Part shown: in pieces, positions 1,004 through 63,130 of the stretch | Position numbering within the stretch: the first letter of the stretch is position 1 | Layout: every line of letters starts with the position of its first letter | Assembly (NCBI RefSeq): GCF_028583425.1 | Contig: NC_072801.1 | Span: forward strand, 59,783,766 to 59,847,765 | From: Eublepharis macularius | Taxonomy: Eukaryota; Chordata; Lepidosauria; Squamata; Eublepharidae | Reading direction: 5' to 3' | Length of the DNA: 64,000 nt | Notes under the pieces: generated by a model | What the model was told of the DNA's origin: nothing | The model's database searches: none | What the model saw: the letters and a program-made list of their open reading frames with translations, nothing else | Translations under genes and position numbers: made by a program

Positions 1004-1092
1004 TTGATTCTACACCGATAGAGAACGTGACTGCTGAAGACTTCCGCAACCTCATGGAAACCAATGTTGTGAGCTGTTTGCTAACATCAAAG
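1004..1092 (+). CDS. HSD17B14: Unit A exon 5
   Basis: 89 nt, phase 1 in and phase 0 out. It encodes the helix with EDFRNLMETN and ends at LLTSK. The donor is AAG/gtgaat. The acceptor reads tttcaaaaag, with a weaker pyrimidine run than unit C's ttttgcaaacag. Confidence 0.82.
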
Positions 1093-4000
1093 GTGAATGA
1101 TTCTAATCTACAACCACTTTCCTCCTTCCCTGGAAGCAGGTGGCTTACCCTGGGGGCATATATGTTTAAAAAGTCAAATAGAGAAAATGCTGGAGTGGTA
1201 TCCATTTAAGAAGTACCATGGTTTACCTGCATATGTCAGGCCTCTGGTGCCTAGATCAGAGGAAGGGCCATGACTCTACGACTGAAGATCTGCTTTGCAC
1301 CCTAAGCATTCACCTTTACCATCTCCAGTTGCAAGAATTTCCACTAGATGTGCTGGAAAGGGTCTCTGCCAATCAGCAGTTCTAAAGTAAGAGGGTTAAT
1401 GTTCTGACTCCAATATATGGCGTGTTTCCAAGTTTCTCTTCTGAGATCAGGCATATTGTTTCTCCTTATATTTTGTGTACAGTACGCACTGCCCTACTTA
1501 CGGGAAACAAGAGGAAACATCATCAACATTGGCAGTCTTGCTGGTGTTATCGGGGCAAAGAACTGTTTGGCGTATGCTCCAAGCAAGGTAATCCTGAGAC
1601 AAGAACGGAATCAATTGCAAAAGTGTTTGAAAACTTTTGCTGCTGTGCCTTTAAAAGCAGTTTGATTGTTAGATGGAGGTTTTCTCAGTGTGGAGGAAGA
1701 CACTATTACAGGCTTTGAAAAGCTCCACCGGCTGATTCTTGCAAATTAAGTTGCTATTAAAGTTATCAGAGGAGGCCAAGCTGGTATTTCTCAAGTCGGT
1801 GGGCAATTCTGATACATGAGGCTAAACCCAGTCTGTAAACAGTCAAGGTTTTATGGAATGTAGGTTGGCCTCGTTTTCATTAACAGACTTAGAAAAGCTC
1901 AATGAAACCTCAAAAGTGAAAACAATCTATGTCTTTTAACTTACTATTTTTCCCCAGGGAGGGTTGCCAACCAGCTTAAGAAAAAAACTTACTATCCCTT
2001 TAACAGAGGCTTAATTGACATGAAATTTACAAGGTGATATCATTTACTTCCCAACTATGAAAAGTTTGGCCTTGAATTATGTCTGCTCCCCCTCCCCCCC
2101 TACACTATTTAACATTCCACAATGGAACAGATCTTTGTAGGGTGGTGATGAAAGGGGCTGAAAGTCAGTGTGACGGATGACGAGGTCTGCCCTGCACCAT
2201 GTATTGTGTCCTCACTAGAGTTGCCAATAGGCCTTGAAAAAAGTGTCCTATGCCAAGAGAAGATTTGTTACCATTTGGATTGAAGACATTATCACAAGAA
2301 ACTTCTTTATGCTCATCAGACTGTAGTCAAAGGCCTAAAAGAAGGCCGAGCCATTCCTGACCAGTTGGCAACCTTACTTGTGTCTTTATCTTGCAGGGTG
2401 CTGTGATCGCAATGACCAAAGCCCTGGCCATAGATGAGAGCAAATGCGGAGTGCGAGTCAACTGGTAAAACTTACTCTCCATACAAAATCCCCTCAGTGC
2501 ACACTGCGATGTGCAAAGGAACGTTAGGAAAGAAAGGGTGGTCTTCCAAATCCCAATGCCAGAAGCTTAAGACCAGGGTTTTTTTGCTAAAACAGAAAAA
2601 AGAAAGAATAGGAGAAAATAAGGAATAGTATGGGGAACTGGCATTCTCAGAGGGTAATATCTGAACAATTGGGCTGGGATCACTTTCTAGAGGAGGTATA
2701 AATAGTAGAAAGTTCCCACATTTCTTTTTCCAATATTGTTCTTTATGAGAAGAGAGACACTAGGAATAGATTCGACAAAACATATGATAACTTCTAGGAT
2801 TACAATTTAAGAAATTAATCCCATTATTTTCAAACCCAGTGGAATAACCTGGTTTTCCTTAAAACTGTGCATCTTAAGTATCTTTAAAGATAAATGTTCA
2901 TATCAGTCTGTGAGATATCACAAAAGCACCAAAACTACTGCACCGATAGAAAGAGAAGGTGGGAGGTGTCAACTTCTTAAGAGGGCCTCTCCAAGGTGTG
3001 TAGAAAAGTAGAGTTTTGTAAATCAGCTCAAAGAAAAATAAGAGATGGGGGCAGGGGGAATTCCAGGGGAGCAGGGTTCCAGCTACAATGACAGCCAAAT
3101 CTGCTCCTTGAGGATCATAACATAAAAAGCAGCAGAAAGACACAGCCAAACTACATGAGATGCCCAGCACGTGTTCTTCATGTGTTGGATTCCTGCAAGT
3201 TAATCTGGGAAGTGTAGTCGATCCCTGCCCCTGAGCTCCCAGTAGGAAATCCAAGCAGAACAGGTTTTTGAAAGAGAGAGAGAGAGTCTCTTGCAAAAAT
3301 CTGCTCCATTTGGATTTTCCTCGAGGAGTTCAGAGGCAGGCATGGGGGTATGTCAGAGCAGGAGGGCCAGAAGGACAGGAAAGAAAGGATCAGTGAGAGG
3401 AGCCCAAAGAGAGACAAGCCCGAAGCTGACAGGCAGCTAGCAACAGCAGAAGTAGCCACTGAGGCTGCCGCGGCTACTCAACTCAAACATCCCTTCCCAC
3501 AGAGCTCTGAGCTCGGGTGTCTCAAGTCTGCTTCCTCTCTCTTAGACTGCCAGGGAGGGCTGCTCACTCTATCTGCACCCTCGAGAGACCCACACTGGGC
3601 TGGGGACCGAAGGCAGCTGTGAGTATAAAAGGAAGAGTGGCACAGGAGATGGGGGGAGCCGCTTCTCTGTCAGCCAGACCCACCTGAAGGAGGGCCGACG
3701 AGGCTGTCAACCAGTAGCGCCATCTACATTCACACGCACCTCACAGGCCTTCTCCAAAAGGCAGGAGGCTTCAGCTTACTAGTGCAACTTCACCTTTCCT
3801 TGCCCACGCTTCTGAGAGTGCAGGGCTGGGGAGATGCCACAGCAAGAGAAGGAGGCCGGCAAAGGCAAAGGGGGAGACGACTCCAGCATCCAGCAACTCA
3901 ACCATCTCACATCTAGGGGAAGGAGACTTCAGCCCCTCAAGCTCAGAGCTCTGTGGGAAGGGATGGTTGAGTCCAGCAGCTGCAGTAATGGTGGTTTTGT

Positions 4001-6011
4001 AACTTCTCTTTACATGGGTTCTATGGGGCTTAGAAAGCAACTTTCACAAAATTTTAAGACACAATTTTTCTTCTTTTAAACTTTTTAACAATTAATAAAA
4101 TACAACTTTAACAAAAAATTAACTTTTAAGTACAACCATACAAAAAAACTCCAAGTCAACAATGTCCTTGAAAAGTCATCCAAGAAGTGATGATGTGTCC
4201 TCTCTCATCCATTTGAAGCAGCTGTACCCCCGCTTCAGGCTTCTGGTTGGGAATTATAGCCCTGCAAAAATAATACAACCCCAGTAACACCAGCTATACA
4301 CAATACACAAACACCACTTAAATCATATTTTACATACAATATTTGATTACCTTATTCAAGGTGATAAGAGCTTATAATTTATTAAGCTCCCCTGCAAACA
4401 ACCTCCTCCTCAGCAGCCTGCTGACTCCACCCCACTGGGCTAAACCAATTAACCTCACAAGGGTTACAGTGGCAGCTTCGGCAGCTTCTTCTACACCTGC
4501 TGTCTGTCAGCTTCAGGCTTGGCTCTCTTTGGGCTCCCCTCGCTGACTAATTTCCTCCAGTCCTTGGCTCTCAGTTAAAGGAGAAAAAGGGGTGGGTGGA
4601 CAAATGAACCTGCCTTGAGCGTATAGAATCCCAGAGGAGGAGATTTGGTGAAGCAGATAACAGCCATCTAGTGATTCTTTGCATGACCATAGCATGGTCT
4701 ATCTGTACCTTTTTGAAAACTGAGTCAAGTTATTGCTACTGCTTAATCTTGTGCCATCACCAAAGGACTTGTTCATTCCGCATGGCCTGAGGTTGCAGAG
4801 GCTGTGTTACATTCTGTATTTTACAGGGATGTATGAAGGAATAATCATGTATAGGATTGTAGGGTAAAACAATTCACATAGAATGTTCAACTGTAAGGTG
4901 GAAGTACATGTCTTTCTAGAACTATTGAAGACACTTGTTCAAAACTCCTTCATTTGGGAATATGTTTCTTGATATTACATGATACCCTTGCCCTTTTTTT
5001 TAATTCTGAAGCATTTTGAATTCTAGCGTCTCACCAGGTAATATCTGGTCTCCTTTGTGGGAAAAGTATGTAAGTCTGACACCGGATCCACAGGCGGTAA
5101 TCCAGGCAGCCCAAAAGCAGCAGGCAAGTATGTTCTGGGAAAACAGGAAGTGTTAGTGCTGCCCATGTGGTTCTGCAATACTTAGGGTGGGGCCTGAATT
5201 TCTCCCTGAATGACAGCTATAGGGATCAGTGCCCAGGAGAATATTCCGCAAGCATGCAGCTCTGCATGTTCGGGGAAGCAGAAGTCCTAGAGTGGCTGGC
5301 TAAAGAGGGTGGATGCTCTTGGACTTCTGTTGGTTGTATGGAAGAAGCTTCCTGGCTGAGCTCCCTCCCCCGGCACTGTCTCCTGATCTGCCAAACTGGC
5401 AATCCTCACTCTATCATGACCTCTACCTGGATGGCCCAGACTTAGCCAATCTTAAAAGCTAAGCTGGAACAGCTCTGTTTTGAACTATGATGGGAAATTA
5501 TCAAGTAAATCTAGAGTTTCTGCCCAGAGGCATGCAATAGCATACCCCTCTGAACATCTCCTTCCTTGAAAACCCTACAAGATCACCATAAGTCAAGTGT
5601 GACTTGATAGAAAAAAATGATGTACCACATATAATATGGTAATAATAAGTAGGGTTGTGAACAGACATGTAGAAAAAAATTGAAAGTCAGAATTCGGCAC
5701 CAAGGAAAGGTGAATTCTCCTCCTAATTAATCCCGCCCTGCCGAGATTCAGCTCATGGTCTAATCTCACATGAGTGTAGAATTTAACCTTTCTCTTCTTT
5801 TGCACACTTATAGCTTATGGGACGTTATGGGACCCCGAAAGAGGTGGCCTTGGGCGTCCTGTACCTGGCTGCTGAGGGAACTTTCTGTACTGGTTTCGAC
5901 CTCGTGATCAGTGGAGGAGCGGAAGTTGGCTTTGGGACAAAGAGCGAGGTGGATCCTCAGCCTGGCCCAAGTGTGAAAGGCATCTCCAAGGACTCCTCTA
6001 GGAAGAAATAG
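1004..6011 (+). CDS. HSD17B14: HSD17B14-like SDR, unit A (exons 5-9, 5' part outside window)
   Basis: Five exons at 1004-1092, 1483-1587, 2397-2464, 5027-5123 and 5814-6011 match the C-terminal two thirds of 17-beta-hydroxysteroid dehydrogenase 14. That cytosolic short-chain dehydrogenase is known to oxidise 17-beta-hydroxysteroids with a nicotinamide cofactor. Visible hallmarks are INIGSLAG with the catalytic Ser, YAPSK (Tyr-x3-Lys), GAVIAMTKALAIDES, CVSPGNIW, and FCTGFDLVISGGAEVGFG near the end. All exon phases match unit C and no stop is seen. Exons 1-4 would lie left of the window behind the repeat block at 1-593; whether they exist cannot be seen. HSD17B14 is preferred over other DHRS members because of the GNIWSPLWEK and FCTG segments. 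Confidence 0.88.
1483..1587 (+). CDS. HSD17B14: Unit A exon 6 (catalytic Ser/Tyr/Lys)
   Basis: 105 nt, phase 0 at both ends, acceptor gtgtacag, donor AAG/gtaatc. It opens with YALPYLRETRGN and holds GSLAG (catalytic Ser) and YAPSK (catalytic Tyr and Lys), so the SDR triad is present in unit A. Confidence 0.86.
2397..2464 (+). CDS. HSD17B14: Unit A exon 7
   Basis: 68 nt, phase 0 in and phase 2 out, acceptor ttgcag, donor ACTG/gtaaaa. It encodes GAVIAMTKALAIDES followed by GVRVN. The split codon TG/C restores the family's Cys before SPGN. Confidence 0.86.
3136..4560. repeat. Unit-A-specific 1.4-kb insertion with foldback core
   Basis: Intron 7 of A carries about 1.4 kb absent from units B and C at the same place. 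The homologous flanks are AAAAAGCAGC near 3124 and CAGTTAAAGG near 4571. Inside, a segment near 3478-3535 containing CCCTTCCCACAGAGCTCTGA reappears in reverse complement near 3905-3975, making a long foldback with a roughly 380-bp loop. I see no coding domain and no family name can be given. Exact ends are approximate. Confidence 0.5.
5027..5123 (+). CDS. HSD17B14: Unit A exon 8, GC donor
   Basis: 97 nt, phase 2 in and phase 0 out. It encodes SPGNIWSPLWEKY and ends AAQKQQ. The donor is CAG/gcaagt, a GC-AG intron; the same GC donor is seen in units B and C. Confidence 0.84.
5421..5618 (+). repeat. 5S rRNA-derived SINE with BovB-like tail (unit A intron 8)
   Basis: AGCTAAGCTGG and ACTATGATGGGAAAT correspond to the 5S rRNA internal promoter words AGCTAAGCAGGG and ACTTGGATGGGAGAC. 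The 3' part reads CCCTACAAGATCACCATAAG, then GTGACTTGATAG and an A-run, like the tail of RTE/BovB elements. The same copy sits before exon 9 in units B and C, and its tail survives in D. Confidence 0.75.
5814..6011 (+). CDS. HSD17B14: Unit A exon 9 with stop
   Basis: 198 nt including TAG. The acceptor is cacttatag. It encodes GRYGTPKEVALGV, FCTGFDLV and SGGAEVGFG plus a polar tail ending SRKK. The tail is slightly longer than that of human HSD17B14. Confidence 0.87.
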   Translation, partial: LMGRYGTPKEVALGVLYLAAEGTFCTGFDLVISGGAEVGFGTKSEVDPQPGPSVKGISKDSSRKK

Positions 6012-17851: not shown

Positions 17852-17855
17852 TGGT

Positions 17856-26922: not shown

Positions 26923-27642
26923 TAAGGCTGTGAATGCACTAGTAGAAAAAAACTGAAAGTCAGAATTCAGCACCAAAACCCCCTGAATTGTATAACTAAT
27001 AAATCACACCCTGCTGAGATTCAGCTCATGATCTACTGTCTTATTAATTGAATCTAGAATTCTACATTTCTCTTCTTTTGCACATTTATAGCTTCTGGGA
27101 TGTTTTGGCACCCCAGAAGAGGTGGCCTTGGGTGTCCTGTCCCTTGCTGCTGATGGAATTTTCTGTACTGGTTTTAACCTCGTGCTCAGTGCTGGAAAGG
27201 AAATCAGTTTTGAGAAGAAGGTGGATCCTGAGCATGGCCCAGGTGCAAGTGGGAGCTTCTCTAGGAAGTTTTAAAGCTGTAAAGTTTGGTAGGGGTAAGA
27301 GCTAAGACAGCAGCTGTCATTTTTTCAGAGTCATCCTTCCAAGAAGAAGCATTCCAAAAGGTTGTTGCATCATGACGCTGTAGCAAAAGAGGATAAAATG
27401 TGAGAGTCTTGAGAGTCAGTGTGGTATAGAGGTTCGTGTCAGCCTAGGAAGTTCCAGAATGAAAGATGGCAGCCCCATCCAGGATTTGGCTCCACCTGGT
27501 CCAGACTCTGACACTGTAAGCAGCAGCTCAACCATGGAATGTCCGTTCTCTAATTAGGTTTCAGTTTGTCAGATGCATGCACCCAAGGACAACAAGGCCA
27601 TGAAATTGTTGAACTTGGTATATTTCAGGTGTAATAAGATGA

Positions 27643-38340: not shown

Positions 38341-38385
38341 TCAGATGGCTTTTGGTCTTAAGAGAAACTGAGGCAAATGGCTAGC

Positions 38386-38473
38386 ATGGCAACTTGTCTG
38401 CGTTACCCGGGCAAGGTGGTGATTGTGACCGGTGGCACCAGCGGCATCGGCCTGGCCACTGTGACAGAATTTG
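38386..38473 (+). CDS. HSD17B14: Unit C exon 1
   Basis: 88 nt coding, phase 1 out, donor TTG/gtgagc. It encodes MATCLRYPGKVVIVTGG and SGIG, the Rossmann glycine loop. The protein is identical to unit E exon 1. Confidence 0.92.
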
Positions 38474-41400
38474 GTGAGCATGGAGAGAACAGGGTCGGGA
38501 TGGAGGAGTGGGCAATTTCTGCCACCAGGTGCTAGGGTCAAGCCAGCCACAAAGACGGGGAAGGCTTGCTCCCTAAATATCCAGTCTGGGGTGGAGAGAA
38601 TGTGGGAGAGAGGAAATGCACTCTTGATATACTCAGAGGAACTTGTGTCACTCCTGTGAGCACAAAAAGGATTCATGTCATACCTTGTGGCATAGAATTT
38701 CAATCTGTTCACCTCCTAGAAGGGGAAATGAAACTGACAGAGCCTTCAGGCAGCAAAGAGGAAAGCCATCTGAGAAGCCATCTTTGCAGGCTCTGTAGAG
38801 AGGGGAAATTGACAAAGCCTTCCGATCTGTCTTTTAAAACTCAGCTTCCTGGCTAACATTGCAACTCCCTTCATGTGTGCGTCCTCATGTAATTCGTCTC
38901 TTGTAGTTTAGCTTTCAGTCTTGTAAACGAACAAATAAATCTAGTTCTGTACATCTCTCTGTGTGTGCGCACCTAGTCCCTAACTTTTGTCTTGCATTCC
39001 TTCTCCTCCTGCCATTCAGTTCGCCAAGGAGCCAATGTGGTCTTCTGTTCACGAGCATGTGGAGGTGAGTCAAGACCCAGAGCCATTTTCCTCACCCTCC
39101 ATGACAGGTTTTCCTTATTTGTTTAAAAATGCAACCTCAACAGTGAAACCTCTTCAGAAAGCTTACAAGTGAAACCCAGATAAAATCAGAAAGGCACACC
39201 AATAACAAAAAAACAATAAAAACCCTACAAGGTCATTACAAAAACATAAAATGAGGGTAGTTGCCCAAAATGATTTTATTTATCCAATATTTATACTGCT
39301 TCTCTTCATTTAACATTTCACTCCAGACCTCCAGCTAGAAATGGACTATAACAACATCCGGTTTAAAAGTCCAAGTAAAAACAAATGCTTTGGGCCTGGT
39401 GAGGCTCGAGGTGAAAGGCATTCTACAGGTCTGGTGAGTGCCCATATCCTCCCTGCTGGCACACAGAGCAAGGCTTCAGAAGGGCATCTTAACTGGGGGG
39501 GGGGCTTGACTCCGTTTATGGCCTCGGAGTTAAGAAGTGACCCTCGGCAATGATTGTGGCCAAGAACAGATAAGCAGCTAGTAGAGAGTTCTGGGCACAG
39601 TTGTGAGATTTTCCCTGTATCCAGCACCTTACTGTCTCCTGCTTTCAATATAAATTAGTTTAGCAAATATAAAGAAAATACAAGGTTGAGGGTGGTAGAA
39701 CAGGGAGGAGAAGAAGCTGGAAAGAAAAGGATGTGGCCAAAAGCACTGCCAGAGAAAGAATACCAGTAAGAAATTTTAAGTTCGGTTCATCAAGGAGAGT
39801 GTAGCAAACATACCACGAGAAATAAGCAGATGACAGAAAGTAGGATTGTCAGACTTTTTCTAGCCTCTGTATCCTCAGCAGTCACTAAATTCATTCTTTC
39901 CCTCTGTTCTAGTAGGGAACAGGGAACAGAACGTGCTTCCCCAAGGAGCTTCCCCCTTCCAAACAGACTGTATTTCTTTAATTTTGCAACACTTATAGCC
40001 TACCTTTTTCCAAACAGAGAAAACATTATTTTCAACACATTTATCAGATGTGCATGTGTGTATTTGCAACTTGGCCACAGTTGGAAGAACAGCTTCAAGG
40101 ATAAATAAAAACTAAGCAAAAAGGGGGGGATTAAAGATTTATTCTGCTGGCAATTGTTCTGTTCTTGCAGCGGAAAGGGGACAAGAAATTCAGAGGGAGC
40201 TGCAGAATTCTGGGTGCCCGGGTGACGCATTCTACCAAGTCTGTGATGTCCGCAATGAGGCAGACATTCAGGTAAGCTAAAATGTTTCTTTAGGAGTTCT
40301 TCAGCCTTTTCCAGAAATGTTCTTTCATTTCTGTACCCAAAACCATTCTCCTTATTCTAATTCTTGGTTGTTGTGCCAGTATTCTTCTGGGCCATTATTC
40401 TTCATTTATGCTCCTCTTTCATACCATCTCTGTCACCTGCTGAGTCACTTGTCTCTCTTCTGAAATGCTTCCATGGGGTTCCACTTGATCCCTCCATCAA
40501 CTTTTAACTTCTAGTTCTCACTGTTGTAGCATATCCTTCCCTTGGCTGGTGCAAGAGGTTTGCAGAGTCTGACAATGGGCAGGGCTCAGCGGTTGAGGAT
40601 AAGCTTTGCCTCCTGGACTGTGGGCCCTGTCAGGTTGGAGGCAGCTCACACGGTTCAGAGTTCCTCATCAACCAAGTGCCAAAGCACCCTCTTCCCACAG
40701 CTGCCGCTGGCTTTGTCCCACACCCTACATATATACCCTCTTCTTTGGATGCAAAGGTTACAGCTCCCAGCCTCTGGCCTCTGCCACCATTCACCTGGAT
40801 TATGTGGGGGGAACCATGGGGAATGAGTCCAGGAGCTCTGGAGCTCTTTCTTCCCATGCCGGGAATGATATAATTCCTGGAGCAACAAGTAAGAGCTCTA
40901 GAGCACACACATTTTTTGCACTCATATGAGGTATGTTCTCCCCAAGTGCCTCCCCATGATCCAACCTGTCCCCAGGTTTGGGCTCTAGGGGACCTGGCAA
41001 CCCTTTTCATCACTCCACTCCTTTCTTCCCATTTATTACCCATTCTTCTCTGTCGCCCAGGCTTCAATAGGTATGGCCCATTAGTTCAAATGGTCTCTTG
41101 CACCTGAATCACAGGTCTCTCAATTCTGTTGCTACACTTGCCCTGAACTCTCTTTATCTTCTGTTCCTGCAGAGGTTGATTTTGGTAACTATAGAACGTT
41201 ATGGATGCCTGGACTGCCTGGTGAACAATGTTGGAACTGGTGAGTGATTTTCAAACTGTTGGGGGCAGAGAAGAATTTGGGATAGACACATCTGGGTATG
41301 AATGTGTGTTCCTTGATTATTCCAAATCCAGCATTGACTTGTTTAACAAAGAGTTCAAGGAACAGTAGTTGGATGACTTTTGTGCAAAGAGGAAAAGATC

Positions 41401-44400
41401 TTGTAGGGGGCAGCAAGCTCTAGCTAGACTGGGCAGCAAGGGAGTTCCTTCTTTTTCAAGGGGTTTTTCCTTATCTATTTGCAGAATGCTATTTTTAGGC
41501 TTTTCTTCTAGAACTCTGCACACTCTTACTCAACTGACAAGGGAGCAGGCTTTAGCTCTTCTTGTTGTATCCTGTTTGTTAATGTCCTATCCAGTTTATT
41601 AATTTTCTATCTAGTCTATGAATGGAACCAATAAAGTTTTGTTACTCTACATTGGTTCAATGTCCTGACCACTGCATAGGCACTCTGCCAGTACCAATAA
41701 CTTTGCAAGTGGCTGTTTACAAAGAAACTCACATGTCCTAATATTAAAAAGTATTTATATAAGGTCACATGTCTCCCACACAAACCCTTTTTAAAGAAAA
41801 TACTATTGTCTTTTAAAGAATAATTAAGTTGTGGACATTGCTCTTTCAGAATGTAGAGATGGAACTAATTCAATGGGAGAATTAGACTGATTCATGGAGG
41901 GCGGGTCCGTCAATGCTGATTAGCCATGATGATGATGAAACCAAAATTCCATATTATGTTTTAAAAAATAATACATATCAGACAAAGAGACATGAAAACC
42001 ATCAACATATTGTGACACTGGGGATCTGTTACCTTGCTCTTTTTGGATCTTGCCTCTGAGAAACTTAGTTCTCTTTTATATCCACTTGATCCTTTTGCAA
42101 ACAGTTGAAGCTGAAACGATAGATGGTGTGTGTGCCCAAGACTTCCGCAACCTCGCACAACTCAACACTGAGAGCTGTTTGTTAACATCAAAGGTGAGTG
42201 ATTCCAATGTATGTTTAAGCACTTTTCCTCTTCCCTGGGGGGAGCTGGCTTCCTCCAAAGCAGAACTTCAAATAGAAAAAAACCTTGGAGTGGAATAAAT
42301 GTTAGCGGTCCCGCTCTTTACCTGCCTATGTCAGTTCAAATCAGAATGACAGGGGAAGGGCCATGGCTCTACAACTGAGAACCTGCTATGCACCCTAAGC
42401 ATTTACCCTCACCATCTCCAGTAGCAAGAACTTCCACTAGCTGTGCTGGAAAGGGTCTTTACCAATCAGCACTTCTAAAGTAGTTGTCTGACTCCAATAT
42501 ACAGCCTCTTTTTCAGTTTCTCTTTTGAGATCAGGCATACCATTTCTGTTTATATTTTGCATACAGTATGCACTGCCCTACTTACGGAAAACAAGAGGAA
42601 ATATTGTCAACATTGCCAGTCTTGTCGGTGATATTGGGGCGAAGAATCTGGTATTGTATACCATGACCAAGGTAATCTTGACCCAAGGACAGATTCAGTT
42701 ACCGATGTTTTTGAACGTTTCTGCTCTTGTGCCTTTATTAGCACCTTGATTGACAGATGTAGGTTTTCACAATATGGAGGGGGACACTATCATGGGCTGA
42801 CTTGTAAATTAATTTGCTTCTAAAGGAACTAGCAGAGGCCTGGATGGTATTTTTCAAGTCAGTTGGCAATTCTCATACATGAGGTTAAACCCAGTCTGTA
42901 AACACTCGAGGTTTTATGGAATGTATGTTTGCCTTCTTTTCATTAACAGGCTGAAAAAAAAACACTTAATTATACTTCAAAATCATTGCTGTGAACCCCA
43001 AGTAGGGTTGTCAATCACCATGAGAAAAAAAGGTCCTGTTCTGTTAACAGAGGTTTAATAGAAACTCATGTACAAGATGATATTGTTTACTTTGGCCCTG
43101 AATTATATCAGCTCCCCCTACACCCTATTTAACATTTCTAGATGGAACAGGACTTTTGGGGAATGGTAATGACAGGTACTGAAAGTGAATGCTGAAGGAT
43201 GGAGAGGTCTGGCCCTACACCCTTTATCTCCTCCTTACAGAAGCTTAGTAGACACTTGTATTGTAAACATTATCACAAGAAACTTCTTTATGCTCATCAG
43301 ACTGTAGTCAGAGGCATAAGAGAAGGCCAAGCCATTTAGGTTCAGTTAACAACCCTACTTGTGCTTTTATCTTGCAGGGTGCTGTGATTGCAATGACCAA
43401 AGCCCTGGCCATAGATGAGAGCAAATACGGAGTACGAGTCAACAGGTAAAACATTGTCCAATGTCCGTACATAATCCCCTCAGTGCACATTGCAATTTCC
43501 AGAGGAATATCAGGAAAGAAAAGCAGGTCCTCCAAATCCCAATTCCAGAAGCATAAGATTCAGGTTTTTTTGCTAAACCTCCCCCACAAAAGAGCTATTA
43601 GAAGAAAAATATAAGGAACTGTAACAGGGAATTGGCATTCTCAGAGTGTAATATCCAAACAATTGGGATGAAATCAGTATCTGGAGAAGGTGTAAGTAGT
43701 ACAAAGTCCTGAAATTTCTTTTCTCTTTCAAATATTGTTCCTTATGAGAAGAGAAATGTGAGAAATAGACTCAGCACAAAATCTAATAACTTCTACGATT
43801 ACAATGTAAGAAAGGAATCCCATTTTTTTTCAAACCTAGTGGAAAACCTGGGCCATTTTCACACATCTTTAAAATAGTGTGATATTCATGGAAGGCTGCC
43901 AGCTTCCTCGCGTGATTTTTGACACCATCCATTTACAAAATGCCATCATAACTGATGGCTTTCCTGGTTTTCCTTAAAGCTCTGTAGAAAAAGTATCGTT
44001 AATGATGAGCGTTCATATCAGGGCCAAGCTACACATGACGAAAGACACTTGCCTGGCAAGTGGATTGAGTGGAGGGCAAGTGAACAGGGAGTAATACATT
44101 TGCCGTTCAAGTGTCATTTGTCACTTGTAGCTTGGCCCTCAGTCTGTGTGATATCACTGAAGCCCCAAAATTCAGGCTTTGGTGATATCCAAATCTGCTC
44201 CATGAAGCCCAGAAAGTAAAAAGCAGCCGAGAGACAGATAAAGGAGAGAAAGTAGAGTGGGGAGAAATTAACCTGCCTAAGATCTTCCAAAATCCCAGAG
44301 GAGGAGATTTGGTGAAGCAGATAACAGCCCTCCAGTGATTCCTTGCAAGCCCACACCTTGTGTAGCGAACTAACTTACTGCCACTAATTTTTCTTGTGCC

Positions 44401-45858
44401 ATAACCTAATGAATGGTTAATTCCACAAGGGCTGGTATGTCAGAGAGAGGTTGCATTCCATTCTGTATTTTCCTGGGATGTATAAATGAATAATCGTACA
44501 GAGGATTGTAGGGTGAATCAATTCATTCGGAGCCAGTTTGGTGTAGTGGTTAAGAGCATGGGACTCTAATCTGGAGAGCCAGGTTTGATTCCCCACTCCT
44601 CCACTTAAAGCCAGCTGGGTGACCTTGGGCTAGTCACAGTTCTCTGGAGCTCTCTCAGCCCCACCCACCTCACAGGGTGTTTGTTGTGGGAATAATAATG
44701 GCATACTTTGTAAACCACTCTGAGTGGGCATTACATTGCCCTGAAGGGCGGTATATAAATCAAATGTTGTTGTTGTTGTTATTTAATATGTTAAACTATA
44801 AGGTGGAAGTTAATGTCTTCTTAGAAATATGGAAGGCACTTCTTCAAAACTCATTCATTTGTTTCTTGATCTTTCATGATGCCCCTACCCTTCCTTTTTT
44901 AATTCTGAAGCATTTTGTATTCTAGCCTCTCACCAGGTAATATCTGGTCTCCTATGTGGGAAAAGTATGCAAGTCTGAACCTGGATCCCGAGGCCATAAT
45001 TCAGAAATCTGCATGTCATCAGGCAAGTGCATTGCAGGAAAATAGGGGTGGTGGGGCTGCCCATTTAATTCTGCCATCCCCAGGGTGGGGATTGAAATTA
45101 TGACTGAATGACAACCACAGAGATCAGTGCCCTGGAGAATAGTGCAGCTCTGCATGTTTGGGAAAGCAGAAGTCATAGAGTAGCTGGCTTCAGAGAGCTG
45201 ATGCTCTTGGACTTCTCTTTCTCCAATGGAAGAAGCATCCTTGCTGAGCTCCCTCCCCAGGCACTGACTTCTCATCTCCCAAACCAGAACTGGCAACCCG
45301 AGCTCTACCATGGCCTCTACCCAGATGCCCCAGACTTGGCCAATCTCAAAGGCTAAGCTGGGACAGCTCTGGTTTGTACTAGGATGGGAAATCACAAAGT
45401 AAAGAGTTTTTCTCTTGAACAAGGTCACCATAAGTCAATTGCGACTTGATAGTAAAAAAAAAAGTTCTACCACATGTAAGATGGTAATAATAAACAGGGC
45501 TGTGAATACACCGGTAGAAAAAAATTGAATATCAGAATTCTGCTCCAAGGAAAGCTGAATTCTACTGCTAATAAATCCCACCCTGCCAAGATTCAGCTCC
45601 TTATCTAATCTCACATTAGATGAGTATAGAATTCAACTTTTCTCTTCTGTTGCACACTTACAGCTTCTGGGACGTTTTGGAACCCCTGAAGAGGCAGCCT
45701 TGGGCGTCCTGTTCCTTGCTGCTGATGGAACTTTCTGTACTGGTTTCGACCTCGTGGTCAGTGGTGGAGCGGAAGTCGGCTTTGACACAAAGAACAGGGT
45801 GGAACTTCACCCTGAACCATATGAGAGTGGGAGAATTCAGGTCTTCTCTAGGAAGTAA
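38386..45858 (+). CDS. HSD17B14: HSD17B14-like SDR, unit C, complete nine-exon gene
   Basis: Exons: 38386-38473, 39020-39064, 40171-40271, 41173-41239, 42105-42193, 42567-42671, 43378-43445, 44926-45022 and 45664-45858. They total 855 nt, or 284 residues plus stop; human HSD17B14 has 270. Landmarks in order: TGGTSGIG cofactor loop (about residues 16-23), VVFCSRACG end of the second strand, CDV, NNVG (usually NNAG), IASLVG with catalytic Ser, YTMTK with catalytic Tyr and Lys, SPGNIWSPMWEKY, and FCTGFDLVVSGGAEVGF. No signal peptide or membrane segment, so cytosolic. The family oxidises 17-beta-hydroxysteroids and other small alcohols. All splice phases agree, with a GC donor after exon 8. Oddities are NNVG, Ser for Cys before LSPGN, and the changed loop in exon 5. 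Start chosen because the ATG is kept in E and gives MATCLRYPGK, like human MATGTRYAGK. Confidence 0.92.
39020..39064 (+). CDS. HSD17B14: Unit C exon 2
   Basis: 45 nt, phase 1 to 1, acceptor cattcag, donor GAG/gtgagt. It encodes VRQGANVVFCSRACG, the second strand that contacts the adenosine ribose of the cofactor. Confidence 0.9.
40171..40271 (+). CDS. HSD17B14: Unit C exon 3
   Basis: 101 nt, phase 1 to 0, acceptor cttgcag, donor CAG/gtaagc. It encodes ERGQEIQRELQ and VCDVRNEADIQ; the CDV motif is typical of SDRs. Confidence 0.9.
41173..41239 (+). CDS. HSD17B14: Unit C exon 4
   Basis: 67 nt, phase 0 to 1, acceptor cctgcag, donor CTG/gtgagt. It encodes RLILVTIERYGCLDCLVNNVGT; the NNAG motif reads NNVG. 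Confidence 0.9.
42105..42193 (+). CDS. HSD17B14: Unit C exon 5
   Basis: 89 nt, phase 1 to 0, donor AAG/gtgagt. It encodes AQDFRNLAQLNTESCLLTSK. Compared with unit A it differs at many positions near the loop before AQDF. Confidence 0.87.
42567..42671 (+). CDS. HSD17B14: Unit C exon 6 (catalytic Ser/Tyr/Lys)
   Basis: 105 nt, phase 0 to 0, acceptor atacag, donor AAG/gtaatc. It encodes YALPYLRKTRGN, IASLVG and YTMTK. Confidence 0.9.
43378..43445 (+). CDS. HSD17B14: Unit C exon 7
   Basis: 68 nt, phase 0 to 2. It encodes GAVIAMTKALAIDES then YGVRVN. The split codon is AG/C (Ser), whereas unit A and human have Cys. Confidence 0.9.
44021..44138. mobile_element. 118-bp palindromic MITE, TCA duplication
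   Basis: Same family as 37706-37823, inverse ends GGGCCAAGCTACA and TGTAGCTTGGCCC, flanked by TCA. It lies in intron 7 of unit C and is absent from A and B. Confidence 0.82.
44528..44782 (+). repeat. tRNA-derived SINE (Sauria-type) in unit C intron 7
   Basis: CGGAGCCAGTTTGGTGTAGT start, AGGTTTGATTCCCCACTCC box B area, GGGCGGTATATAAATC end with (GTT)n tail. Units A and B lack it at the same position, so it is younger than the split of C from them. Confidence 0.85.
44926..45022 (+). CDS. HSD17B14: Unit C exon 8, GC donor
   Basis: 97 nt, phase 2 to 0, acceptor ttctag, donor CAG/gcaagt. It encodes LSPGNIWSPMWEKYASLN and ends SACHQ. Confidence 0.88.
45303..45463 (+). repeat. 5S rRNA-derived SINE (unit C intron 8)
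   Basis: AAAGGCTAAGCTGGGACAGC and TACTAGGATGGGAAATCAC match 5S rRNA words; tail GTCACCATAAGTCAATTGCG. Orthologue of the copies in A and B. Confidence 0.75.
45664..45858 (+). CDS. HSD17B14: Unit C exon 9 with stop
   Basis: 195 nt including TAA, acceptor cttacag. It encodes GRFGTPEEAALGV, FCTGFDLVV and SGGAEVGF, with a tail ending FSRK. Confidence 0.9.
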   Translation, partial: LLGRFGTPEEAALGVLFLAADGTFCTGFDLVVSGGAEVGFDTKNRVELHPEPYESGRIQVFSRK

Positions 45859-46600: not shown

Positions 46601-49600
46601 CTGTGAAAGATTTCTTCAGAAACCCTATAGAAAGTCTGAGGTTCCAAAAACATGGTTATGTGTACCTCAAAATGGCTCTGATTTGTGCCTGTCTATCTCC
46701 CCACCTTTGTGAACTTAGCAGCTGAAGTCCACAGTCAGCTTAAGTCCCTCAAAAGGGGCACAAAAAATGATTTAAAAAACAGTTAACTACAATTAGAACT
46801 TCTTTTGAGGATTTAGCAAAGCATATGAGAGGAATGGCAATAGCAATGTAACAGCAGAAGGGAAGGCTTAGAAAAATCTGTCAAGAATGCTGAGAAAATG
46901 CAAGTTCTTTTTTTAAAAAAAGAGAGCTGATAGTAGAAGAGCTTGCAAATAGAGGATGGAGGATAAATGCCCATTTTGAAGGAATCCCTCAGTTTGGGGG
47001 AGGGAATTACATGGAAAACATGTCAGGATGGGTTACCCTGCAAATGAAGAGACGGCAAAACAGCTTCATTGCGATCCCATAATTAGACTGTCAATTCTCT
47101 CTTCTTTAAATTCAAAAATGTCCAACTTTATAAAAATCTTTCTCCACAAGCCTTAATGCAGTGGTGCTCAACCTTTTTGAGTATGAAACCCCCTTCTTAA
47201 CCTCAACAAATTACCTAGACCTCCCATATGATAGCAGTAGACAGTTCTATTATTATCAATTGGTTGAGAAAACCAGTGACAAAAATATGAAAATGACAGT
47301 TCTTAGAGCACATATGGATTTGCCAACTGCAACTCCATAGCTCCTCAGGTATCTTCAGCCCCCAGACTGGGAAAAAGAAAGCCATCAGACATTTCATCCA
47401 CATGTAGTCATTTTTTCATTGCAGAGTGTAGTTTTTAAAAAAGGACTCTGCTGATGTGATTCACGCCTTTCAAGAATGCTTTAGAACAGTCCTCTTCCTC
47501 CTCCAGCTGTGTTTCCTTGTGCCCCCATCATTCCTCCCCAAAGAAGGAGTCAGTCCTGATTTTCTCCACCTCATTGGAGCAGGAGAGGTGAGCTTTGGAG
47601 CTCCAGGTTAGAGCAACACAGACCCTGTGGCACCCCCAGGAATCATACAAATGCACATTCAGAAGAGGCTTTCCTGCCCCCACTCCAACAGTTCACTGGG
47701 GAAAAGCTAGGGTTGACCACTATCTAGAGAGATGGAAAACAGCAGGATTAATAGGGCATTATTTATCTCCATTCAACAAAAATCTTTAGCTGCTCTTTTC
47801 TGCACATTAAGGCTCTCTTAAAGAGTTAGGACTTTTTTTCCAGGCTTGTGGGCAAACATAGAAGAAGCACCGAAGGCTTCCTCATGACATCATCATCTGG
47901 TTGTCCTTCTTCCAGCTGCTTTCAAGAAAGTATGGAGGGGAAAATATGGATTTCTTCACTCCCCACCCCAACTGCTGGCAGGCTTTTAAAAAAAGTATTG
48001 GTTGTACATATATTGCTTTAAAATTTGTAATGGATCAGGAGGGATGTGTGTTTTTACTCTTTTCTTCTTCCCACTAAAAAAGAAAAGAAGTTGCTATGGT
48101 CCAACTATCGCATTAAGGGTTTCCACAGAGTACCGTGTTCATCCCCTTCTTGGGATGGGGCAGAGATACTCCCAGAGAGTTCCACCTTCCATCCACCTTC
48201 CGCCTTCCATCTTAAGGGGGAGGGTGTTGAGATCAGGCCTTTTAATATAAAACCAGGCTCTGTTTCACTTTTTCATAATCAAGCTCTGAGTTAGCCTGCA
48301 GAGCCAGGAAGAGAAGGGCAATTGAAATGCCAGTTGCTCAACTTGAATTGGAATTGCAAGTGCTCCGGTTGCATCTGCAGTAAAACAAAGCCAGGAGAGC
48401 TTCGTGTACAGTTTGTGTATTGGAACGGTTATTACTGGGGAAAGCCTTTTGTGTTTTGTAGCTCTACAAGACAGGCAGGGGGAGGGAGAATGGACTCCTC
48501 AGCCCAATGCTCCTCTCCCTAGTACTGGTAAGGTGGACTTTAAGTAATTACCTTGAGTTTCGGATCAGGAAGATGTGGAATTGCTTTTTGTTATTTGAGA
48601 GGGCTTGCACTGAGCAGAACGTCCCCAAAATGGACTTCTTAAGGGTGCTGAGACCTCAAGTGAGTGGAAGATTGGTCAAGCTCCCAGGAGAGGAAGATCC
48701 TGCTCAACTTGGCAACTATGATCAGTTCAAAAACAAAGCTACTGTGCACTTTGCTGTCCCCTGAGCTGTGTAGGGAACCATTGGCAAACGGTCCAGTAGA
48801 TGAAACTAGCTCAAGGAGAAGCTTCAGGATACTTTGTAGTTTACACAAAAGGCCCCCTGAAGACGTGGCTGCTGGCCAAATGCTGCCAGGATCTGGACTG
48901 TGTTGTCAATGTGCTTATATTGTTACCCAAATAGACATTCTCCTAATTAATTGGGGGAATTCGCTTTAAAGGAGACAAGCGAGAGGCAGTAACTAGGATT
49001 CTCCACCTATGTTTATGGGGATTATTCCCTTAGAGAACTCTCAAATAAGCTAGGCAGATACCCATCTAGAAAGGTTTTTTAATTGAAGAGAATAAAAGGA
49101 CAAATGTACAGAAATCACACACAGAATACATACACAGCTAACTAAGAAAGTCTGGGAGTAAAGGGGGGGAAATCAATTTAGAGAGGGCCATAATTACCAG
49201 ACTTGAAGACAGAGTTTCACAAAGACAGCAACAAAATGACCAGCGTTTTCCTAAGAGAAGAAGTCCAAATGGATTTGGGGTGTATGAGTCTCAAGAGAGA
49301 GAAACACAGCACATGATTGGCGAACCCATTTATATGGTGAAATGCACCCTAGGGAAAGCTAACATTTCTACCCCCAAAACAATGGCTTAATGGCTGTCTC
49401 TGGAGGTGGACAATGGAGTTGGGAGAGGTGTGAAAGGTGCTTGGTGATCCTTTGGGCACCAAATGGGAAAAGGTACCAGGTTTGCTGAATAGCTTGGGTG
49501 TTACTTGATTAGGGGAGACAAGGTTGGGTATAGACAGGATGAGTCAGGAGCTTCCTTGGAGCCTCAAGTACCTCCAGGGCATGAAGGGGGCCATTGGTCA

Positions 49601-51128: not shown

Positions 51129-52765
51129 CTTCAGCTTATCCTGACACACAGACTTTGAATTATTAGACAGAAGTCTTCCGTAAGACAGTGATATTACAGT
51201 TAAGGAAAAGGAATCTTCTACCTTCACTCTAAAGGTGAACCTGCCTGACTTTTCTTGTCAGACTCCCCAATTCCAAAAATCTTCTCAGAAACCAACTGAC
51301 TGCCTTCAGGCTGGTTCTAAATAAGTAATCAGAAAAGAGGGAGCAGCCTGGCACTCAAGCTTGCCATTCTAGGAATAGTTAACCTTTCCAGGTCTCTGAT
51401 TTTGCTGCACCATGGAAACTTGTTGTTAAGTGCATTCCATCACACATGGCACCTTACGTGCGTTACCCAGGCAAGGTAGCAATAGTGACTGACCCACACA
51501 AGAAGTATTGCCCTGGCCATTGCAAGATAATTTGGTGAGCGTACAGAGAACTGGGTATGGATGGAGGAGTGGGCAATTTTTGCCAACAGGTGCTAGCATC
51601 AAGCCAGCCAGGAAGGCTAGCTCTCTAAGAAAGGGAAGGAAGGAAGTGAGAGAGATGGAAATGTGCTCTTGATATCATCAAAGGCACTTCTCTCTGTCCT
51701 GTGAGCATAAAAAGCACTCACATGGTACCTTGTGGCATAAGGTCTTGTGGAACAGAGACTCTTCATTTGCCTTTGACATACTTGGTGGATAAGTTATAAT
51801 TTACTTTGGATATGTTCCAGAAGTGATTTGTTGCATTGAAAACAGGTTACAACAACTATCTCTTTCCACTGTGGTTTAAAAAACTGAGAAGGGCATGGGG
51901 AAGACTGGAGGTGGCATGGTTTCTGGGTTGTTGTTGTTTTAGTAAGCAAATTATTTTATATTCATTCCTGTACAGCAACAGATTCCGTGACAACAGAAGC
52001 AGTCCTAGAAGGAAAGCCGTTCTGTAGCTTCAGAGGTGTCAGTCAGGACAGGCTGGTAATATCCGGAGTCATTTTCTCTCTGTCTTTGATGGCATTTTGA
52101 GAGATGCTTCCCACTGCTTTTTCACCATCATGTAGAGTCTCATTGCTGCCTGGGCATCCTGGATCGAGCTATGCTCCGTACATTGTACCTTCACATTCAG
52201 CAATTTCTCACAGAGCAGTTTCAGGGATGGCCTCACACACTTGACCTGCTGTCTGAAAGGTTTGTATCTTTGTGTGTCCCGGATTTTCTTTTTAGGATGG
52301 TCAAGAAATAAAACCTTTAAGTCATGGTGAAGAGCATGTCCAACTAGAATCCTTTCCTTTAGAATGTCAGCTACCTCCTTCTGAACAACTTTAAAGTCTT
52401 CCCCTGTTTTTACATTCTCTGGCCGAATCCCACTAATGGCTGTTCTGTAATCCATCACTTTTTCTGCAGCCTTGACATACTTGTCACAAACACACTTGCC
52501 AAACTGATTCACAAGAGATACACGGGCCACAATGCTGTCTTCACCGTTTGGTCCCATGCCAACCATCTCGCAGTCCATGGCTACAGCTCTTGTCAAGCCT
52601 TCAAAAGCCTTCTCCTTAACCAAGGTCTGCTCTTTCAGTGGCTGGGCTTTCTCTTCACTCCCCAGTTGCTTCTGGAGACGCCCCAGTTGTTTCCGGGCAA
52701 TTTTTGCTGCTTCTTCTGACCCCAAGGCTGCTTCAATGTCATCTGGATCCACATCATCAAACCAG

Positions 52766-54562: not shown

Positions 54563-57189
54563 CTGGATGGCCTTTTAGAATGATTGAACAGGGCTCTTTT
54601 CCATTTCATTTATACCCCACTTTTCCTTCCAGACTGGGACCTAAAAAGGTTTACAACATTGTCTCCTTCTCCATTTTACTCTCAAAACATCAACCCTGTC
54701 AGGTAGGCTAGGCTGACAGTGTTGACTGGCCCAAGGTCACCCAGCAAGCTTCCCTGGCAGAGTGGGGATTTGAGCCTGGGGTCTCCCAGAGCCTAGTCTA
54801 CCCACTAACCCAAGCTGCATTACATTCTGTAAGGCTCACTGAAGCTTTAAGTCCCATTGACTGGAGAAAAATCAGGATAGAAATCCTTTAAATCAATAAT
54901 GCTGTGCAAAAAATATCACCCTCTGTGCTGCCATTAACAGTTTCTCTAGAAATGCGTTTTTCATAACAGGTTAATCACTGGGAGTATATAGTTTAAGAGT
55001 AACATGCAAGGAAAGAACCCGGGGTACCATTGCTGCAGCCTTCTCCCTGGTATAAATAATGCCCTGGCCCTTTAACATGAGCCGAATGGATGCTATTTAC
55101 CCTGTAATGTTATTCATCTCCATGCTGGGAAAATCTTTAGGTGCCCATTTTTACATATTAAGCTTCTGTTAAAGTGACTGGACATTTTTCTCCAGGCCTG
55201 TTGCTGCCAGCCCTAGATGGGAGGGGATACAGCAACAGTTATACATTTTATGTGTCTTAACCAGTACAAGTGTTGGAAACGTTCCCCATGTGAGAAAACA
55301 TTAATTCCTGCCTCCCTTCCCCAGGAACAAATTAGAACTTCTTTTGTCTTTCAAATCCAGTTTGTGTCTCATCTGCCACCCCTTCTCAGTTCATTGTTAT
55401 GACCCAACTGGGGAATTTTAATTTCCTTCTAATGATCCTCCTGACTACTGTCAAAAGCAGAAGTTCTTATTTCCAGCATCATCTAACATGGCATAGCCAT
55501 TGGCAAGCACCTATGAACCCTGGTGAGGCATTCTTGATGAGGACTGGTGAAAGATACTGTCCCACAGGCACGGTTTTGGGGTGGTTGTAAGGAAGACACT
55601 TTATTTTATTTCTAGGATAGTTCTACCTGAGAAGGATGCTGTTGGAGGAAAATTATTCTAATGTATATAAAAGGCAATTTAAAAAGTAGAGCTCTTCATG
55701 CGTGCATTCTTTTTTTTTTTTAAAGTTAATATTCAGCACCAAGAAAACTTGTTTCCTCTTTTATAATACAAATGAAGGACATTTGTACTCATGGTTCTGC
55801 AATGTGGTGTTTTATTTCACCATAATGAAGTTTACTTTGTACTCCCAACATATTTTGTAAAAATAATGCGGAGGGGTGACTTTACTCCAGTCTCTTTCTA
55901 GTGTCAGAGTTTAGCTCTGAAACATGTTCTTGGTTGCATGATTGAAAGAAGTCAGCTGACAGAACAATGAGAACATGAAATGTACCCCCCACATAAGCAA
56001 CAGAGCTTTAGGGAAGGCCTTCTCTTCTCTTCATTAGAGACACTCTGATGGTTGGTTTTTGGTGAGAAGATCTGCCTGTTGAAGGTTGCCCATCCTGAGA
56101 CCGAAAACACCTCTTCCACCCGCAAAGTGTTTGTGGGTTTCTTTGAAAACTTAAATGATGGTAATGACAAGAACTGAATCTTGTAAACAAACAAATAAAC
56201 CTTATGATGTACATATGTGTGTGTGTGTGCGTGCCTGCGCGCCAAGCCTCTGAGTTTTGTCCTGCCCTCCTTTCTCCCTTTTAGTTTGCCAGGGCGCCAA
56301 GGTGGTCTTCTGTTCTCGAGCATGTGGAGGTGAGTCAAGAGCCACTTGACTCACCTCCCAAGACAGGTTCCCCTTAGTTGCTTAAAAAATGCCACCTATA
56401 CAGTGAATCTCCTTGAGTCAGCTTACAAAGGAAAACAAAATTAAATCAGAAAGGCACTGAAAAATGTTAATTAAAAACATTAAAAAACCTTCTAAGAGCT
56501 TTACAAAACCAAAAAAATGCCTCAAATGATTTATTTATTTATTCAGTTTTTATACCCCTTCTCTTCAGTTCTCAGTTAAGGCTTCAGGGTAGAAGTTGAC
56601 AATAACCATAACCGTAACCATAACCATAACATCCAAACAATAACCCCTTGTTTAAAAGTCTGAGTAAAAAGAAATGTTTTGGCCTGGTGAGGCTCGAGGT
56701 GAAAGGCATTCTACAGGTCTGGTGGCCACCCACATCCTCCCTGCTGGCACATAGAGCAAGGCTTCAGAAAGGCATCTTAACTGGGGGGCTTGACTTCGTT
56801 TATGGCCTTGGAGGTAGAAATCTACACTCTGCATTGATTGTGGCCAAGAACAGACAGGCAGCTAGCTAGTAGAGATCTCTGGGCACAGGTGTGAGATGAT
56901 CCCTGTATCCAGCCCCTTACTCTCTTCTGCTTCCAATATATATTAGGTTAGCAAATATAAAGAAAATACATGGTTGAGAGTAGTAGATACAGAGAGGAGA
57001 AGGGTGGGAAGGATAAGATCGCTGCTAATGTGGAAACTCCCATTGTCCGCTTCAAGCTCTGCCAGAAAAAGAATACCAGTAAGAAGTTTTCAGTTCCATA
57101 CCTCCTCAAGGAGAGTGTAGCAAACACACCATGAGATTCTCCCTGCTCTTCTCTGGCCACAGCTTGTTTAGCCATTGTATTACCAATCT

Positions 57190-59852: not shown

Positions 59853-59879
59853 TGAGGTCTTAGCTCCGTCCAGAACCAA

Positions 59880-60954: not shown

Positions 60955-62136
60955 ATGGCAACTTGTCTGCGTTACCCGGGCAAGGTGGTGATTGTGACTG
61001 GTGGCACCAGCGGCATCGGCCTGGCCACTGTGACAGAATTTGGTGAGCATGGAGAGAACTGGGTCGGGATGGAGGAGTGGGCAATTTCTGCCACCAGGTG
61101 CTAGGGTCAAGCCAGCCACAAAGACGGGGAAGGCTTGCTCCCTAAATATCCAATCTGGCATGGAGAGAAATTGGGAGGGAGGGAAATGTGCTATTTCGAT
61201 CCTGAGAGGCACCTGTGTCTGTCCTGTGAGCACAAAAATGACTCATTTGGGACCTTGGCATAAGGCCTTGTGGAGTAGAGACTATTTGTTCACCTTTGAT
61301 ATACTTGATGTAAAAGCTGTAATTTGCTTTTAATGTGTTGCTGAAGTGATTTGTTGCATTGAAAACAAGTAACAGGTTCAAATTCTAGGAAGGACAGGGG
61401 GGAGACTGGAGGTGGCATGGTTTCTGTTTTAATAGCAGGTGAAGCTACACCTCCTGAATATCAACCTCTAGTAATCCCAGCCTGCCAGAATGCAAGGTGA
61501 TAATCGTACTTCTGGATCACTTGTCTGACACTCGAACTGTGAGGCAGAGGCTGGAGAATTAGGTGCCCATGTTTTAGGAGTAGAGATGGACACGATCCGC
61601 GTTATGATCGAACCCCCCCCCCCCACGATAATGGCGATCGCGCGATCGTGACCCAGCGGATCATGATCGTCCATGGCCAATGATCCAGTGATTGGGAAGG
61701 GCCTGGATCGGGACGATCGGGCTCAGATCAGGGATCCAGACTCTCAGGCACCAGCAATCTATTCCCCTGGCAACGGAGCCAGGGAAATGCCTGAGCCGTG
61801 TTTGCCCTCCTTCTGTCACCCTGGAAACCCGAATGGAAGCCCAGCTTTCCTTGATCAGCAGGGCTTCCTTCCAACCACGGAGCAGCAAAGCAGTCACCAG
61901 TTGGGAGAAGACACTCAGGGGAGGGAAGGGGTAGGGGGTGTTCTGTAGCCATGGGCACTCCAATCTCATCCCTGCAAACCCTGATAGGCAGCTCTGACGG
62001 CCAAACACAGACCTCCTGTGTTGCTGAATGGGACCCATGCTTATAAATAGCCGTGGTCTCCCAGGCTGGGTTTCACTTTCTGCGAGCAGTGGAGTGGGAC
62101 AGAGCTCTTGCTTGCTACTTGCTAGCCTTTGGGGGG

Positions 62137-62183
<47 letters not shown>

Positions 62184-63130
62184 ATTGTGCTTGGCTTTAG
62201 TGGATAGCTATTGGCCGCCATCACCCACCTTCCCACATAGCTGGGAATACCAGCGCGCCCCACTTTGACCTCCACGATCCACGATCCACGGATTGGGAAC
62301 GGGAGATGATCGGTGTGGATCATTTATTTGGGATCGGCGGCAGTGCCAATCCATGATCAGCTGGATTGTTAATTTTTGGGGGGTCATGCCCATCTCTATT
62401 CAGGAGTAAGAGTGGCATTTTTTTCTGGCTGGGTCTGTGTTGGGGTAGGCTTGACCTGTTGAATGCCTGCTTCTGAGACTGCAATTAATGACAGCCAACA
62501 GGAGACCCAACCCCCAATTTTTTAGACGGTGCAGAAGAGGGTTCCCCTCTACCGAGGTACAGTTGAAAGAGATCTATTACCCTTATGCCCTCTTTGGCTG
62601 ATGATTCAGCAAGGTGGTTTTTATTTCATACTAATAAAGTTTACTTTGCACTCTCAGCATTATTTTTTTTTGATAAAGGCAGTGGAGAGGTGACTTGACA
62701 GGTAACTCCAGCCTGTTTCAAGTCTCAAGGATTAGCCCCGGAGCATGTTCTTGCTGGCATGATTGGAAGAAGTCAGCTGACAGAACAGCGAGCAAATGGA
62801 ATGCAGCCCACACAAGCAACAGGGCTTTAGGGAGGGCCTTCTCTGCACTTTATTGGAGACAGTCTGGTCATTTGTGGTGAGAAGTTTTGCCTGTGGAAGG
62901 TTGCCCTTCCTGAAACACTTTCATAGGCAAAGTGTTTGTGAGTTTCTTTGAAGACTTAAATGGTACAAAAAGCAGGAAGTGAGTTTTGTAAATGAACAAA
63001 GAAATCTAGTGATATACATCTCTATACATCTGTTTGCCAAGCGTCTAAGTTTTGTCTTGCATTCCTTTCTCCTCTTGCCCTTCAGTTCGCCAAGGTGCCA
63101 ATGTGGTCTTCTGTTCACGAGCCTGTGGAG
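60955..63130 (+). CDS. HSD17B14: HSD17B14-like SDR, unit E (exons 1-2, continues off window)
   Basis: Exon 1 (60955-61042) encodes MATCLRYPGKVVIVTGGTSG and IGLATVTEF, identical at protein level to unit C, with donor TTG/gtgagc. Exon 2 (63086-63130) encodes VRQGANVVFCSRACG with ttcag acceptor and GAG/gtgagt donor. Both are intact and in phase. The 870 bp after exon 2 match intron 2 of unit C and lack the GC-rich segment of B and D. The remaining exons would lie beyond the right edge. Protein class as for unit C. Confidence 0.88.
61581..62398. mobile_element. 818-bp non-autonomous hAT-like element in unit E intron 1
   Basis: Ends TAGAGATGGACACGATCC and GGTCATGCCCATCTCTA. Flanked by TTTAGGAG (61573-61580) and TTCAGGAG (62399-62406). 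Unit D at about 54073 has an uninterrupted TTTCAGGAGTAAGAGTGGC, the empty site. The interior includes GATCATGATCG-type words and a (GA)n tract. The frames inside are not transposase. Confidence 0.85.
62140..62179 (+). repeat. (GA)n microsatellite
   Basis: About twenty GA units after a G-run, inside the hAT-like element. The truncated copy at 23699-24177 lacks it. Confidence 0.95.

Follow-up and report, generated by a model that had tools for sequence, protein, structure and literature searches.

Vertebrate genomes carry tandem families of enzyme genes that evolve by birth and death, among them the CYP, UGT and AKR1C clusters. In PMC11293516 the product of mammalian HSD17B14 is given as 17beta-hydroxysteroid dehydrogenase 14, an L-fucose dehydrogenase, with a catalytic centre formed by Ser141, Tyr154 and Lys158, and the gene adjoins BCAT2; the legend of Fig. 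4 there credits Asp42 with the NAD preference. The same paper names a Burkholderia L-fucose dehydrogenase (PDB 4gvx), an SDR without the NAD-selecting Asp, which is said to prefer NADP. In Table 1 of PMC7064643, which covers 13 vertebrates with no squamate among them, hsd17b14 is a single gene in 11 species and not found in two, chicken and spotted gar, and never occurs twice; for these species the table agrees with the initial annotation, which had regarded the gene as generally single-copy in mammals.

The locus described here, from Eublepharis macularius, is in our judgement probably a tandem expansion of HSD17B14 over about 516 kb, at the ancestral position beside BCAT2, which has grown by birth and death and encodes enzymes with altered pockets. 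Like the CYP, UGT and AKR1C clusters, it has head-to-tail units, live and dead copies and putative local gene conversion; unlike them, it shows at its right end a regular alternation of dead (short) and live units. With mammalian HSD17B14 (PMC11293516) it shares the fold family, the Ser141/Tyr154/Lys158 centre, the glycine motif and the BCAT2 neighbour, and it differs in having about 28 units, against no more than a single gene in any of the 13 vertebrates of PMC7064643, and in six full paralogs without Asp40, His93 and Gln148. The missing Asp is common to the array and 4gvx, which is bacterial, is no ortholog and serves as a functional parallel only. Among the papers listed by the literature searches, those for geckos and lizards included, none described an HSD17B14 expansion; annotation databases may already list '14-like' loci.

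The window, i.e. the whole stretch of DNA under study, is 64,000 nucleotides long (C12:59,783,766-59,847,765, C12 being contig NC_072801.1). Exon models consistent with splicing were built from tblastn searches with human HSD17B14 and from DNA alignment of the copies. The human exons matched head to tail on the + strand, in five units of one SDR gene, as the initial annotation had proposed, and the models reproduced exactly its two outer ends, 1004, where A exon 5 starts, and 63130, where E exon 2 ends. The features are as follows:

1004..1092, + strand: unit A exon 5, weak acceptor AAAAAG
1483..1587, + strand: A exon 6, catalytic Ser/Tyr/Lys present
2397..2464, + strand: A exon 7
5027..5123, + strand: A exon 8, GC donor
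5814..6011, + strand: A exon 9, through the stop codon
25418..25514, + strand: unit B exon 8, ruined by three stops
27092..27271, + strand: B exon 9, two in-frame deletions
35573..36178, + strand: spacer block; in the 264 kb searched, its first ~400 bases have counterparts only next to the dead units B, D, F and H
38350..38589, + strand: C side of a putative gene-conversion tract with E
38386..38473, + strand: unit C exon 1, start codon and Rossmann motif TGGTSGIG
39020..39064, + strand: C exon 2 (VVFCSRAC; Ser in place of human Asp40)
40171..40271, + strand: C exon 3
41173..41239, + strand: C exon 4
42105..42193, + strand: C exon 5
42567..42671, + strand: C exon 6, catalytic Ser/Tyr/Lys present
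43378..43445, + strand: C exon 7
44926..45022, + strand: C exon 8, GC donor
45664..45858, + strand: C exon 9 and stop
46710..47588, + strand: 3' spacer common to A, B, C and others
51446..51534, + strand: unit D exon 1, frameshift removing the glycine motif
56285..56329, + strand: D exon 2, isolated
60955..61042, + strand: unit E exon 1
63086..63130, + strand: E exon 2; exons 3-9 lie to the right of the window
11507-11749, 13603-13845, 24706-24949, 28073-28314 and 49738-49983: fold-back elements

Unit C has nine exons, 855 bp including the stop, and encodes 284 aa. Every acceptor is AG and every donor GT, apart from a GC after exon 8 that is also found in A and B. Only exons 8-9 are left of B and exons 1-2 of D. 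The earlier description of B and D as ruins and of C as complete was thus borne out. A and E are open, as had been stated; they appeared partial (A exons 5-9, E exons 1-2) because the window edges cut A on the left and E on the right, and in the genome both are complete nine-exon genes.

Several other elements occur in the window. The A-B spacer contains an exact tandem repeat of 1,942 bp (100%; 10089-12030 and 12185-14126), either a very recent duplication or an assembly error. Another exact repeat, of 545 bp (16695-17239 and 17853-18397, 613 bp apart), lies in a Copia-like region, with a Pol_BBD match near it and an rve match below the cut-off. The fold-back elements listed above are self-complementary, about 240 bp long, situated in spacers and introns, and 95-99% alike in one orientation. 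Inside unit D, on the minus strand, there is an intronless frame in two pieces (52069-53806), one of them with a PF00929 exonuclease domain; we take it to be REXO4-like, and it is apparently a retrocopy into which a palindromic element has come, leaving it in two. A reverse transcriptase frame (PF00078; 30939-31820, minus strand), presumably Penelope-like, is inserted in the B-C spacer.

Whole-genome searches were performed on the 2.24-Gb assembly (2.237 Gb, 72 contigs); match counts are lower bounds at the thresholds used. Exon 1 gave at least 22 matches (21 on the + strand of C12, plus a marginal one that lies within the array on the minus strand), exon 3 at least 23 (22 on C12 +, one on C8), exon 6 at least 22 (21 on C12 +, one on C8) and exon 9 at least 25, all on C12 +. 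None of these 92 matches contained a stop. The array spans about 516 kb, from C12:59,414,845 (exon 1) to 59,930,986, the end of the last exon-9 match (~59.415-59.931 Mb). Grouped by position, the matches form about 28 exon-bearing units, and 21 of these have exons 1, 3, 6 and 9; the grouping of unit 11 is a guess, as its exon 9 lies 14 kb past exon 8. Seven ruins or fragments were found: U1 (exons 3-5 only), a lone exon 9 at 59,437,744, and the short ruins B, D, F, H and J. Exonless 3'-flank sequence survives as a further relic at 59,776,988. The tandem array first described therefore stands, with a count about five times the five units given to it, and the local expansion of two dead and up to three live copies is real and much larger than proposed.

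Sequence was read continuously over 264 kb (59,723,766-59,987,765) and in pieces over the left 300 kb. Complete open genes are U2 (284 aa), A (285), C (284), E (278), G (285), I (285) and K (275); K exon 2 is the single candidate printed from a scan filtered by phase and motif. The six frames of 278-285 aa have AG acceptors and GT or GC donors. A GC donor (GCAAGT) begins intron 8 in six of the seven full genes (U2, A, C, E, I and K), and G has GT. Unit U3 has lost the exon-4 acceptor, Ser141, Tyr154 and exon 8, this last loss being based on an exon search of the 264 kb and on blastn. Many array copies look usable, a word that for the 13 left-hand units means open exons 1, 3, 6 and 9, since only some of their exons were read or matched.

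The copy on C8 (C8:41,019,801-41,021,000) is 97.8-98.9% identical to unit 1 in its exon-5-to-intron-6 part. It joins exon 5 of unit 1 to a cryptic exon of 95 bp, which in unit 1 has AG and GT at its borders, then to exon 6 and intron 6, and by translation its exons 3, 4 and 5 are joined as well; no poly-A tail was seen. It resembles a retroposed, partly spliced transcript, which makes recent germ-line transcription of unit 1 probable; this copy is the one sign of expression obtained. An origin of the array units themselves as processed retrocopies was rejected: the full units have nine exons with introns, and only the C8 copy looks retroposed.

Ser, Tyr and Lys of the catalytic centre are all present in 18 of 21 exon-6 copies. 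In the other three Tyr is replaced by Asn; Ser141 and Tyr154 have become Cys and Asn in unit 11 and in U3, and U2, which alone of the three has an intact frame, has Asn for Tyr only. The glycine motif TGGxxGIG is found in all seven full genes and is complete, together with the catalytic residues, in C, A, E, G, I and K. Gln148 occurs in K only (1 of 21 exon-6 copies). K also has His93, for which the remaining six full genes carry Asp or Thr. We take 93 and 148 to be pocket positions of HSD17B14; the solved chains 6ffb and 6hno carry Ala at both in our alignments, which fits this role.

Asp40, which we take to be the acidic residue after strand 2 that sets NAD preference, is replaced by Ser in the six full array genes and by Ala in K. 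For residue 41 the full array genes have Arg, except for Gln in I, and K has Pro. At position 42 the gapped alignment gives Gly for the array genes (Ala if ungapped) and Glu for K (Gly if ungapped); the six paralogs and K are eight residues longer than the human protein between its positions 38 and 62. The acidic residue after strand 2 is thus missing in the array copies, which read S-R/Q-G or -A there. A Ser-Arg pair at this place is typical of NADP(H) SDRs. The loss of His93, Gln148 and Asp40 in six copies suggests altered substrate and cofactor use, as a prediction from the sequence. For K the cofactor inference is weak, because it lacks Asp40 yet has Glu at 42 in the gapped alignment; as K too lacks Asp40, the change at the cofactor site is partly older than the array.

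K would retain the ancestral activity, that of an L-fucose dehydrogenase in mammals. The 16 other copies with an intact triad and an untruncated exon-9 core would be SDR oxidoreductases with a changed pocket, Gln148 being gone in all of them and His93 wherever exon 5 was aligned; their cofactor preference may have changed, perhaps to NADP(H), with Asp40 gone wherever exon 2 was read. It is possible, though less likely than not, that the locus encodes about 17 active SDRs (K and these 16), that the array members have switched to NADP(H) and act on new substrates, which might be gland, skin or dietary sugars or else steroids or lipids, and that the Tyr-to-Asn clade supplies, maybe, non-catalytic partners in SDR tetramers.

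Codon analysis was performed on the six full paralogs (260 codons), with the same kappa in all tests of omega. Omega was 0.564 (2dlnL 19.2 against omega 1), and these six genes are under purifying selection. Outside the assumed pocket omega was 0.379 (2dlnL 31.1) and inside it 0.788 (2dlnL 1.2), no different from 1. Diversification of the pocket (0.79 vs 0.38) was not upheld: the contrast is a hint and not significant, since 10 of 64 slid masks reached 0.788 or more and the mask was picked after the variability had been seen. C and U2 evolve fastest, having most of the private codon changes (nonsynonymous/synonymous: C 9/9, U2 9/3, the other four 2-4 of each), U2 being also the one without the catalytic Tyr. 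An open frame alone proves little, because in neutral simulation the probability of no stop was 0.135-0.376 per terminal branch, indels not counted.

These results bear on the reading that the array consists mostly of relics, i.e. that the expansion was non-adaptive, that only K and a few other copies still work, and that the open copies are young or were kept open by conversion. The seven ruins and fragments agree with it, as do four more units in which exon 6 or exon 9 is damaged (7, 11, U2 and U3), the homogenisation visible in the C/E tract, and the comparison of A with C alone, where omega (0.66, bootstrap 0.41-1.08) is not clearly below 1. We consider it unlikely, given the omega of the whole ingroup, lower still outside the pocket, and the six open frames of 278-285 aa, which keep proper splice sites at 74-91% protein identity to one another.

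In self-blastn, introns, the 3' flank and spacers were common to the units, so whole units were duplicated; the initial annotation had noted shared introns, UTR and flanks. Noncoding divergence between units (K80) is mostly 0.11-0.30, which, with the 8e-10 per site per year used for lizards in PMC8735750, corresponds, very roughly, to 65-190 My; two spacer-4 comparisons with A gave 0.56 and 0.77, the aligned piece of A being only partly homologous. A tree of exons 6 and 9 sets the left-end units 1, 2 and 4 (support 99) apart from the rest (95), with most inner nodes weak, and gene conversion blurs any single tree of units. The putative conversion tract joins C (38350..38589) to E (~60921-61160): some 240 bp across exon 1 are 97-100% identical, intron included, and identity falls to 75-79% in the immediate flanks, which is why we read it as conversion; between 120 and 270 bp upstream, identity is again higher, at 87-92%.

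Towards the right end each dead unit is followed by a live one (B-C, D-E, F-G, H-I, J-K), and the dead ones share blocks of their own. One intron-2 block matches in B, D, F and H only, within the 264 kb, as does the first part of the spacer block listed above (35573..36178). Identity of that spacer is 98.1% for F-H, 94-95% for B against F or H, and 90% for D against the others. For an intron-1 block K80 is 0.09-0.20 among the dead units B, D, F and J, and 0.18-0.25 between these and the live or recently broken U2, U3, A and E, with slight overlap. This arrangement suggests that dead-plus-live pairs were probably duplicated together, with later exchange; it was not one clean event, because G and I diverge more than the F and H spacers. 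The expansion as a whole would have begun with unequal crossing-over between homologous spacers, which duplicated whole nine-exon units, and gene conversion and deletion would then have shaped a birth-and-death family of about 28 units.

A false array, made by stacking haplotypes or repeats during assembly, could draw on the exact 1,942-bp and 545-bp repeats of the window, which may be assembly errors, and on the spacers of dead units, which differ by as little as 1.9% (F/H) or 5% (B/F). It is highly improbable: noncoding blocks mostly lie 10-30% apart between units, far above usual allelic difference, and the units differ in their spacers, ruins and transposon insertions.

Against solved structures, the spliced C protein matched human 17beta-HSD14 best (2.9e-75; best different protein 2.1e-35) and A exons 5-9 matched it at 1.3e-54, which supports the initial assignment to HSD17B14; among solved SDRs no other family gave a better match. 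K is 59.6% identical to human HSD17B14 and the other six full genes 48-50%; these six are 62-65% identical to K at the protein level. The genome's only Aminotran_4 match lies 24 kb downstream of K on the same strand and marks a BCAT2-like gene, a label at the level of the protein family and no proof of BCAT2 itself. About 115 kb to the left of the array there are minus-strand exons of a Tub domain; this domain has 14 matches on five contigs, so that 'TULP2-like' is a label given by position. In humans TULP2 presumably flanks HSD17B14 on the side opposite BCAT2. With these two neighbours flanking it, the array is at the HSD17B14 locus, beside a BCAT2-like gene as in mammals, and K is likely the positional ortholog. 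The legend of a figure in PMC4527844 names a 17beta-HSD14-like and a branched-chain aminotransferase gene among those around Grn. That some other SDR gene was expanded, as the 48-50% identity of the array copies to the human protein and their missing Asp40 might suggest, is hardly credible in view of the 40 orders of magnitude (E-value) between 17beta-HSD14 and the next solved SDR, the higher identity of K and the two flanking genes.

In its mechanism, birth-and-death duplication, this HSD17B14 expansion is ordinary; it stands out by the gene involved, its scale, its catalytic-null copies and the alternation of dead and live units. It shows birth-and-death evolution in a gene found at most once per genome in a survey of 13 species. 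HSD17B14, until recently placed in steroid metabolism, is now assigned to that of L-fucose; a locus with about 28 copies, graded changes of pocket and cofactor site, and natural catalytic nulls is a ready-made mutant series with which to ask what purpose the enzyme serves.
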